This document shows, one piece after another, positions 30,185 to 34,020 of a stretch of DNA of 40,893 bases. The translations under genes and the position numbers were made by a program. Under the pieces are notes generated by a model. That model ran no database searches. It saw only the letters and a program-made list of their open reading frames with translations, and was not told where the DNA came from. The first letter of the stretch is position 1. The number at the start of each line of letters is the position of its first letter. This DNA is from Armatimonadota bacterium (lineage in GTDB: Bacteria; Sysuimicrobiota; Sysuimicrobiia; Sysuimicrobiales; Humicultoraceae). The DNA is taken from contig JAVHMA010000029.1 in the NCBI GenBank assembly GCA_031081715.1, positions 1-40,893 of the forward strand, in the 5' to 3' direction.

Positions 30185-30278
30185 GCCCGCACCCTTCTTG
30201 TCGCCCGCGCTGGTTTCCTCCGAGGGCGCCATCCACAAGCGCCCACACTATCCACACCCCCAGAACGCTCGTTGGGGA

Positions 30279-30307
30279 TTGCGCGCTCCACCCCGCAGTG
30301 TTACGGT
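30279..30307 (+). promoter_or_regulatory. Weak candidate promoter for the structured RNA
   Basis: TTGCGC (30279-30284) and TACGGT (30302-30307) are exactly 17 bases apart but match consensus at only three of six positions each. The expected start, near 30314, coincides with the 5' base of the closing helix of the candidate RNA. That position is the main support. Confidence 0.25.
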
Positions 30308-30314
30308 ACGGCTA

Positions 30315-30500
30315 GAGGGGCGCGAGCCCAACGGCAAAGTAGCCGACTCAAACGTCGCGCACGTGGACTCCGAAAGCCCGACGGTCTTCTTGGGGGGTAA
30401 CTCCCAAGATCAGCCTGACGAGCAGTAAGAACCGGCGGCGCGACCGAAGACGGTGAAACGTCGGAGAAAGCCAGCGCCCCTCTTCGACTTTTCGTTCTAG
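30315..30500 (+). ncRNA. Candidate structured noncoding RNA, family not recognised
   Basis: GAGGGGCGC (30315-30323) is perfectly complementary to GCGCCCCTC (30474-30482), closing about 150 bases with many internal pairings: CGGC/GCCG (332-335/342-345), CTCCGA/TCGGAG (368-373/461-466) or the alternative CCGACG/CGTCGG (378-383/459-464), GTCTTC/GAAGAC (384-389/446-451) and a hairpin TTGGGG/TCCCAA (390-407). GTCGCGC (354-360) also matches GCGCGAC (438-444), a possible pseudoknot. A-rich unpaired stretches (GTGAAA, GAGAAAG, CAAAGTA) and the lower GC content fit a plus-strand RNA. A T-rich stretch (TTCGACTTTTCGTTCT) follows the closing helix. It does not match tmRNA, RNase P, SRP, 6S or any riboswitch I know. 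Confidence 0.5.
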
Positions 30501-30564
30501 CCCCGCGCTGTGCAGGGAGCCACCTCTCGCCCTGGAGAGGGGGCGGAGGTGACCGATCACGCGC

Positions 30565-31314
30565 GTGAGCTGGCTGCGCGATGCCGGGGCGCTCACGCGG
30601 CTGACGCGCGACCTCCCCCCGGTTTCTCCGCACCCCGCTCACCCCGGAGGCGGTGCGCGCAAAGGCCGCTGCCAGGCTGGCGAAGCGCGAGGCGCACCTC
30701 CTGGCGCTCGCCGACCGCGCCATCTACGCGAACCCGGCCAGCCCGTAGCGGCGGCTGCTCCGGTACGCCGGCTGCGAGCCCGGCGACCTGCGGGCCCTGG
30801 TCGCCGCGCGCAGGCTCGACGGCGCGCTCGCCCACCTCGCGGACGCCGGCGTCTACGTCACGTTCGACGAGTTCAAGGGACGTACCGACGCCGTGCGTGG
30901 AAGCGCCCGCTTCCGGTTCCGCGACGCGGAGTTCGACAACCCGACGATCCCCTCGCACGCGCCATCGGCCGGCTTGCCGGCCGACCGTTGCCGGCGCCCT
31001 CGTTCCACGACCTGACCGACGCGGCGGGCATGGTGCGGCGGCTCACCACGCTGCGCCGAGACGGTCGACCGATCGGCGCCGATTACCAGGTGATCGAGCA
31101 CGAGGAGGACGGGGTCTTGGGGCTGTCGTTGCTCGTCGGCCCGGTGGATCCCGAGCGCGTCCGCGCCGTGTTCCTCGAGGCGCTGGCGGCCGGGGGCGGG
31201 CTGGAGCGCCTGGGGGCCGAGTTCTGGCGCCGCGCTCGGACGGTGACCGTCCGGCGGGAGGAGCCCCGGGCCACCCCGGCCGGCAAGGTGCTGCCGTTTC
31301 AGCTCAGTCGGTAG
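30565..31314 (+). pseudogene. Decayed acyl-adenylate / phenylacetate-CoA ligase-like gene
   Basis: The remnant reads well as a protein only across several frames. From GTG 30565 it starts SWLRDAGALTRLTRDLP. Removing one C from the six-C run at 30615-30620 continues RFLRTPLTPEAVRAKAAARL. That frame has a TAG at 30746-30748 where a Tyr is expected (SP-stop-RRLLRYAGCEPGDL), and goes on to GVYVTFDEFKGR and EFDNP near 30940. The next recognisable part (PSFHDLTDAAGMVRRL onward, from about 30996, ending TPAGKVLPFQLSR) is back in the first frame and looks like the C-terminus. The central adenylation core is missing. I recognise the ends as resembling LuxE/PaaK-like ligases; the family call is moderate, the decay itself clear. 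Confidence 0.6.
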
Positions 31315-31702
31315 TCGGCAGCGGCCCGCGCACGGCGACCGCGTTGGCCACGGCGTGCGCGTGCGTGTGCGAGAGCGCCAGCAGCACGTCGGTGATGCCC
31401 CGCTCGTCGGCGAGGCGCCGGGCGGCGCCGTGGAGGTGCACACGCGGCCGGCCGAGCGCGTCGTTGGCGATCTCGATCTCCCGCCAGGCGAGCGCCCGCC
31501 AGCCCACGCCCAGCGCCTTCATCACGGCCTCCTTCGCCGCGAACCGCGCGGCCAGGCGCGGGAACCGGCCCGCGGCGGACTGCGCCCGCGCGAGCTCGGC
31601 CGGGGCGTAGACGCGGCGCAGGAACGCCTCACCCCACCGCGCCACGGCCCGCTCGACGCGATCCACCTCGACAATGTCCACGCCGATGCCGACGAGCGTC
31701 AT
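31304..31702 (-). CDS. acpS: Holo-acyl carrier protein synthase
   Basis: AcpS attaches 4'-phosphopantetheine to ACP. The 132-residue product starts at ATG 31702, overlapping the Trm112 stop (ATGA). Diagnostic motifs are VGIGVDIVEVDRVERAV (metal-binding Asp), RFAAKEAVMKALGVGW and LLALSHTHAHAVANAV. The frame continues upstream only as overlap. Its 3' end overlaps the convergent pseudogene by 11 bp. Confidence 0.96.
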   Translation of the reverse strand: MTLVGIGVDIVEVDRVERAVARWGEAFLRRVYAPAELARAQSAAGRFPRLAARFAAKEAVMKALGVGWRALAWREIEIANDALGRPRVHLHGAARRLADERGITDVLLALSHTHAHAVANAVAVRGPLPTTD

Positions 31703-31875: not shown

Positions 31876-33723
<1,848 letters not shown>

Positions 33724-33828
33724 GTCGTCGCCTCCAGGCACGTCGTCCCGACCCGGGCACCCACGCGCCGCGCGCAACGGGTGCGTTCCCCGGGAGGAAC
33801 CGCATCAGACCTTGGGGGATGCCTCCTG

Positions 33829-33997
33829 GACCGCCGCTTTGGGCCGGAGTTGCCTCCGGGGTTTGTCGGCGGCCTTGCCCTCAGCCGTGGGTGTCGTGGA
33901 CTGAGGGTGTGCAGGCCCGGATCAGGCCTAGGGTCACCCGCCGATCCTCCGAGCTCCCCTTCCTCGTCAACCCGGACCGCGTCCGGGTTCAGGCGCT
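33829..33997 (-). ncRNA. glmS self-cleaving ribozyme / riboswitch
   Basis: The minus strand matches the glmS ribozyme throughout. Cleavage would fall between A 33997 and G 33996, before GCGCCTGAAC. P1 is a nine-pair hairpin (AACCCGGAC/GTCCGGGTT). Then come TTGACGAGGA and AUCGGCGG in the core, CCCTCAG/CTGAGGG, GGCAAGG, and the P4/P4.1 domain with ACAAACC, a CCGGAG-GCAA-CTCCGG hairpin and CCCAAAGCGGCGG. In known members glucosamine-6-phosphate is the cofactor for cleavage, and the cut mRNA is degraded. It lies 105 bases before glmS. Identification is by remembered consensus; a covariance search was not run. Confidence 0.9.
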
Positions 33998-34020
33998 GGC
34001 GCACGCGTGAACCGCCGCAT
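33967..34020 (-). CDS. Possible leader peptide overlapping the ribozyme cleavage site
   Basis: A perfect AGGAGGTGAT lies at 34028-34019, and ATG 34020 opens a 17-codon frame (MRRFTRAPAPEPGRGPG) ending at TGA inside the ribozyme, just after P1. The ATG is only two bases from GGAGG, so initiation may be poor, and the match could be chance. If translated, ribosomes would cross the cleavage site and the P1 helix. Confidence 0.2.
   Translation of the reverse strand: MRRFTRAPAPEPGRGPG

Follow-up and report, generated by a model that had tools for sequence, protein, structure and literature searches.

The raiA motif, or ModT (RF03072), is a standalone, highly structured RNA of ~200 nt with its own promoter and a terminator; it is conserved across a large clade and acts in trans by a mechanism that is incompletely known (PMC11706538). 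Its model contains 8 helices and 2 pseudoknots (PMC11706538). 6S RNA (RF00013) is a rod with a long closing helix and is likely a global, trans-acting RNA. CsrB and RsmZ are trans-acting RNAs that occupy a protein and occur in several copies under different control.

Here we describe RNA-1, found in a 40,893-nt stretch of DNA (the window, meaning the whole stretch analysed) from a member of the Sysuimicrobiota. As judged from comparison of its homologues, positions 30314-30484 (+) are a structured noncoding RNA of ~171 nt that is under natural selection in one little-known bacterial phylum. These comparisons give good support to RNA-1 as a previously uncatalogued family of an already known kind, the standalone structured bacterial noncoding RNA. 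RNA-1 shares with the raiA motif its standalone, highly structured character and its own promoter. However, it is an unbranched rod, occurs in other taxa and has several paralogues per genome, and RF03072 did not match its region at the gathering threshold or at E up to 10. RNA-1 is similar to 6S RNA in its rod shape, its length (~170 nt) and its long closing helix, and probably also in acting globally in trans. The likelihood that it is a divergent 6S RNA is nevertheless close to nil, as the conserved motifs differ and relaxing the search to E up to 10 still gave no RF00013 match to RNA-1. The true 6S RNA lies elsewhere in the same genomes: RF00013 was found in 28 of the 43 genomes of the phylum, and its separate locus in the genome of the window (G000:C41:158759-158939, E 2.3e-15) refutes the identity. 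The likeness to CsrB/RsmZ concerns the proposed action only and is an analogy; RNA-1 lacks their repeated GGA hairpins and has conserved internal-loop modules instead.

A rod-shaped RNA outside the catalogued families

The original prediction had placed a structured RNA of no known family in this region, and neither of the two outcomes that it named as refuting it, a significant Rfam match or homologues short of compensatory changes, was obtained. With Rfam 15, the cmscan of the whole window found no family at RNA-1, its sole match being glmS at 33819-34008. At E up to 10 (30200-30600), sbcD RNA (RF01757) was the only family listed, at 13.1 bits (E 3.1) against a gathering score of 40, and this is a chance match with a shifted register and broken pairs. 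Nothing credible was obtained from Rfam with the divergent copy L120, and a literature search for known RNAs from Sysuimicrobiota found none. The lower GC content that had been noted is confirmed (0.605 at RNA-1 vs 0.73-0.78 in the flanks). The folding energy of RNA-1 in the window has a z of -2.60, with 2 of 200 shuffles equally good, and the mean z of the homologues is -5.25. A protein-coding reading was rejected, as the original prediction had also held: no frame is conserved, the most open of six frames spans the core in 15 of the 38 homologues, and indels are mainly of 1 nt.

The structure model was built from an alignment of 38 sequences by column-pair inspection, and a covariance model, R1, was derived from it. 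The RNA is modeled as an unbranched rod, P1-P2-P2b-P3-P3b-P4, of 39 pairs without branch points, and the homologues are ~145-175 nt long. Its elements in the window are as follows.

30314-30484, + strand: RNA-1, match to R1 (175.6 bits, model positions 1-172 of 172)
30314-30323, + strand: 5' arm of P1, pairing with 30474-30483 (ten pairs in the window)
30332-30335, + strand: 5' arm of P2, CGGC, pairing with 30460-30463 (100% paired)
30342-30345, + strand: 5' arm of P2b, GCCG, pairing with 30451-30454 (invariant within subfamily A)
30346-30353, + strand: 5' side of an internal loop, ANUCAAAC, with its 3' side at 30445-30450 (CNGAAGA)
30354-30360, + strand: 5' arm of P3, pairing with 30438-30444 (6 pairs, both-side changes at all of them; nested in P2b)
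30364-30371, + strand: 5' arm of P3b, pairing with 30428-30434 (columns 58-124 are U-A, G-C or C-G)
30372-30374, + strand: GAA strand of a candidate G-bulge (loop E/sarcin-ricin-like), with its AGUA partner at 30424-30427
30376-30377, + strand: 5' arm of P4a, pairing with 30422-30423 (100% paired, one double-change pair)
30384-30396, + strand: 5' arm of P4, the apical hairpin, pairing with 30401-30411 (96.5% of cells paired, 4 double-change pairs)
30474-30494, + strand: 3' arm of P1, then a T-rich tract (30484-30494), the probable 3' end and presumed site of termination

In the 38 homologues, 97.8% of the cells are paired and both sides change at 20 of the 39 pairs. When the 3' partners were slid by 1-3 columns, these values fell to 36-52% and 2-7 pairs, and shuffled controls never matched the model in either respect. 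Against a home-made R-scape-like null, each of the top five pairs belongs to the model (expected chance counts 0.025-0.53); this null is very conservative, and the shuffled and slid controls are the clearer test. Sixteen mostly divergent copies aligned to R1 have 93.4% of cells paired and 25 pairs with both-side changes, in an alignment that is biased to the model, and the same rod is seen in the own minimum-energy folds of most of these copies. P1 is present family-wide as the 8 pairs 30316-30323/30474-30481 in all 38 homologues (100% of cells, 4 double changes). The first pair of P2, which is C-G, U-A or G-C, gives the strongest covariation of the alignment. In the 16 divergent copies, the variable G-U pair of P2b is A-U in 3, G-C in 3 and lost in 6.

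The closing helix, for which nine pairs had been claimed, thus has ten in the window, and the T-rich tract said to follow it is present here and in most homologues. Two further claims stood in part. The pairing of 30354-30360 with 30438-30444 exists and covaries, but it is the nested helix P3 rather than a pseudoknot. As for mutually exclusive pairings, covariation backs the long-range P2 (30332-30335/30460-30463) over a local GGC/GCC hairpin.

Helices swap letters yet stay paired, and conservation outside the pairs is concentrated in two internal loops. The loop between P2b and P3 (ANUCAAA/GAAGA) contains the most conserved letters of the family, which divergent subfamilies retain. For the second, the GA(A/G)/RGUA loop between P3b and P4a, we infer a G-bulge motif: G61 and A121 are invariant, A62 and U120 nearly so, and columns 63 and 118 covary (G/G, A/A). 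Could such letters serve a trans-acting antisense sRNA, whose conserved single-stranded bases, for example ANUCAAA or GGUAAC (the A-type loop), would pair with mRNA? We consider this rather unlikely. The independent promoter, the 3' T-tract, the several paralogues in some genomes and the stress-like control elements would all suit such an RNA. However, its single-stranded portion is small, the apical loop varies from subfamily to subfamily, and the conserved unpaired letters oppose one another within internal loops, similar to tertiary or protein-binding modules.

Distribution and genomic context

By blastn, RNA-1 was found in 31 of 61 genomes, at 71-89% identity in genomes other than that of the window and sometimes in several copies. 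A search of 386 genomes with R1 found it in 31 of the 43 genomes of the window's order and in none of the 343 outside it. Among families, it occurs in f1, that of the window (10 of 11 genomes), f2 (9/10), f5 (1/1), f6 (1/1) and f7 (10/12), and the search gave no RNA-1 in f3 (0/1) or f4 (0/7); its function, whatever its nature, is therefore not essential to the phylum. As far as searched, RNA-1 appears confined to the Sysuimicrobiota (CSP1-3). Phages and plasmids gave no match, nor did two pattern scans of IMG/VR, and a mobile or phage-borne origin was rejected on these searches. The named genome records are metagenome-assembled genomes, and we know of no pure culture from this phylum. The Sysuimicrobiota, formerly CSP1-3, comprise one class, one order and five families, are distributed worldwide with a relative abundance of up to 22% in some soils, and are described as facultative anaerobes (PMC11604079).

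Most f1 and f2 genomes carry a single copy, and f7 genomes carry up to seven, some of them shorter or divergent, in counts that include contig-end fragments. Contigs terminate within the copies L037, L038, L135, L136, L027 and L181, probably owing to disruption of short-read assemblies by the repeated RNA, so the copy numbers in f7 are uncertain.

In f1, RNA-1 is flanked by two genes of the opposite strand, acpS and nnrD, and sequence comparison shows vertical inheritance at one locus. It also adjoins nnrD in f2, where the downstream gene is not that of f1 and the adjacent genes are again on the opposite strand. At one f7 locus, RNA-1 has a DUF1844 gene on one side and DUF255/thioredoxin genes on the other. 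Further copies are found near genes for solute-binding proteins, a glycosidase, formate-THF ligase/VKOR, a histidine kinase, LonB and HSP20, PGA_cap, and CBS-BON. A gene consistently linked to the RNA-1 loci was sought and none was found; neighbors are unrelated and their orientation varies. RNA-1 is therefore neither a leader nor a riboswitch: no co-oriented, functionally related gene consistently follows it, and the adjacent genes are often on the opposite strand.

This context also bears on the earlier suggestion that the RNA is switch-like or catalytic and has a pseudoknot, which found no support. Compactness, the conservation of internal loops and the candidate G-bulge would fit a ligand-binding RNA or a ribozyme. 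However, the downstream gene is inconsistent, the next genes in f1 and f2 are on the opposite strand, neighbors vary from copy to copy, and covariation requires neither a pseudoknot nor a multi-helix junction in the unbranched rod, all of which makes this reading improbable. Instead, RNA-1 is probably a regulatory RNA that acts independently and does not belong to an adjacent gene.

Two other features of the window lie 3' of RNA-1. A 366-aa open frame (30510-31610, +) has no Pfam match and may be a chance frame or a gene remnant. The glmS ribozyme (RF00234, 42.8 bits; 33819-34008, -) precedes the glmS gene (31876-33777, -).

Control elements and a second structured RNA

The following elements were read upstream of RNA-1, the repeats by direct reading.

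30229-30237, + strand: DnaA-box-like repeat CCATCCACA, 2 mismatches to TTATCCACA
30248-30256, + strand: DnaA-box-like repeat CTATCCACA, 1 mismatch to TTATCCACA
30263-30274, + strand: GAAC-N4-GTT box, at a fixed distance 5' of the -35 and conserved in homologues
30279-30307, + strand: promoter, with -35 TTGCGC (30279-30284), a 17-nt spacer and -10 TACGGT (30302-30307)

A promoter that would start transcription at the closing helix had been predicted, and the comparison bears it out. In the homologues, TTGAC-N17-TANNNT stands at the same distance, with its predicted start at the first base of P1, and the spacing to P1 is fixed in all types of RNA-1. A generic sigma-70 scan did not flag the promoter in the window. 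On sequence evidence, RNA-1 thus has the marks of a standalone noncoding RNA: compensatory changes, and its own promoter at a fixed spacing to its 5' end.

Most copies, including that of the window, have what we call type A control: TATCCACA-like repeats, then GAAC-N4-GTT, then TTGAC-N17-TANNNT. With a threshold of at most 1 mismatch to TTATCCACA, DnaA boxes number 5.7/kb in the 150 bases upstream of 57 copies vs 0.14/kb in the remaining sequence of the loci (~40-fold). DnaA-like boxes are also clustered at the dnaA loci of Sysuimicrobiota. Given such repeats 5' of most copies, the region could be a DNA-level element without an RNA, namely a datA/DARS-like site that binds or titrates DnaA and extrudes a hairpin. 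This is very improbable: the boxes lie upstream of the promoter and outside the structured part, and subfamily B keeps the structure while its boxes are missing. The model also strongly favors one strand (175.6 bits on + vs 23.4 on -; antisense matches of 18-30 bits, which stem from the near-symmetry of the rod, were excluded), G-U pairs are frequent in the helices, and the -35 and -10 are fixed relative to P1. This combination of strand preference, G-U pairs and promoter spacing makes the conservation of the DNA point to an RNA, and it is from these that we infer the transcript itself.

On visual inspection, the GAAC-N4-GTT box resembles a LexA site, but a PWM built from the lexA promoters of the phylum rejects it as a LexA/SOS site: lexA boxes (CGAACANNTGTTTGC) score 18-25 bits and RNA-1 boxes at most 11.5 and mostly below 6 with the same PWM. 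Most genomes of the phylum encode two LexA-type proteins (G000:C41:224164 and G000:C37:61587 in the genome of the window). A strict CGAACANNTGTTTGC-type box lies upstream of the gene for the first, and a GAAC-N4-GTTC box precedes that for the second in only 5 of the 19 genomes examined. A growth-rate promoter of the rRNA type was also rejected, the type A element being missing upstream of 16S and tmRNA.

Type B control, that of a divergent subfamily, has GAATAC-N9-CCGATRG or a closely similar motif at roughly the distance of the type A element, and is found at copies L047, L048, L120-L125, L127 and L132. A genome search placed the same motif, together with a -10, 5' of cupredoxin, CBS-domain, Crp/Fnr-like, DsrE-like and TAT-signal frames, the last a likely oxidoreductase; these redox-gene names were read by eye from the DNA and not assigned by Pfam.

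L157, L158, L162, L163, L164, L166: GAATAC-N9-CCGATRG and a -10 before likely redox genes and RNA-1 paralogues

These genes suggest a redox or anaerobic regulon behind the motif, which is probably the site for an undescribed redox/anaerobic regulator of Sysuimicrobiota.

When the 43 genomes were searched for the type A element, most f1 and f2 genomes had it in two places (genome-wide counts of control elements rest on pattern searches), namely before RNA-1 and before another structured RNA, 90-124 nt in length and unrelated to it, which we call RNA-2.

G000:C36:47945-48037 (L167:3946-4038), - strand: RNA-2 in the genome of the window
L168-L180, L182-L184, L126:3852-3942, L210-L219: further RNA-2 loci

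RNA-2 has the near-invariant letters GRUGGGAG..GAGG and CCCGGCCUAACU. Its model, R2, found it in 28 of the 43 genomes of the order and in none of the 343 others; f4, which is without RNA-1, is among the families that have it. Rfam gave no match to RNA-2, cold-seep-1 reaching 17.2 bits, far under threshold. In f1 and f2, RNA-2 stands behind the same DnaA-box/GAAC promoter element as RNA-1. Few DnaA boxes are present in f4, where TTCCGGATTG or a near form is kept.

Proposed mode of action

We favor a reading of RNA-1, a new family, as an independently transcribed, trans-acting, protein-binding regulator of stress or growth, with a probability only slightly better than even (roughly 0.55). RNA polymerase would start at P1 and stop past P1 and the T-tract, which would free a compact RNA. 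A protein or a large RNP might then read the rod through the ANUCAAA/GAAGA loop and the GAA/RGUA G-bulge loop, and RNA-1 would in trans titrate, allosterically alter or scaffold this partner, in a manner similar to 6S, CsrB or raiA/ModT. Copies under different promoters (DnaA-box/GAAC or redox-regulon) would allow several physiological states to reach one partner. Protein binding is suggested by the conservation pattern: conserved internal loops would imply protein recognition and hence action in trans, and they would also be in keeping with a base-pairing or ligand-binding role.

A more specific version is possible but doubtful. In it, the DnaA-box/GAAC promoter would couple RNA-1 and RNA-2 to replication or growth, RNA-1 paralogues would belong to the redox/anaerobic regulon, and the protein target would be novel. 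If this were true, Sysuimicrobiota would have a layer of global control by RNAs specific to their lineage, with a DnaA-box/GAAC element dedicated to RNA-1 and RNA-2 and present almost nowhere else in the genome, and the protein target of both RNAs would have no known RNA regulation in other bacteria. In one and the same genome, this RNA core can stand behind either of two unrelated control elements, which suggests that the copies share a target that integrates different states. The DnaA-box-like repeats and the redox-type regulon make the biology of RNA-1 testable, and the phylum gains the well-supported RNA-1 family plus a second RNA family. At one locus, L126:3852-4157 (G007:C32), a degenerate RNA-1 (-, 71 bits) and an RNA-2 (+) are convergent and within ~60 bases of one another.
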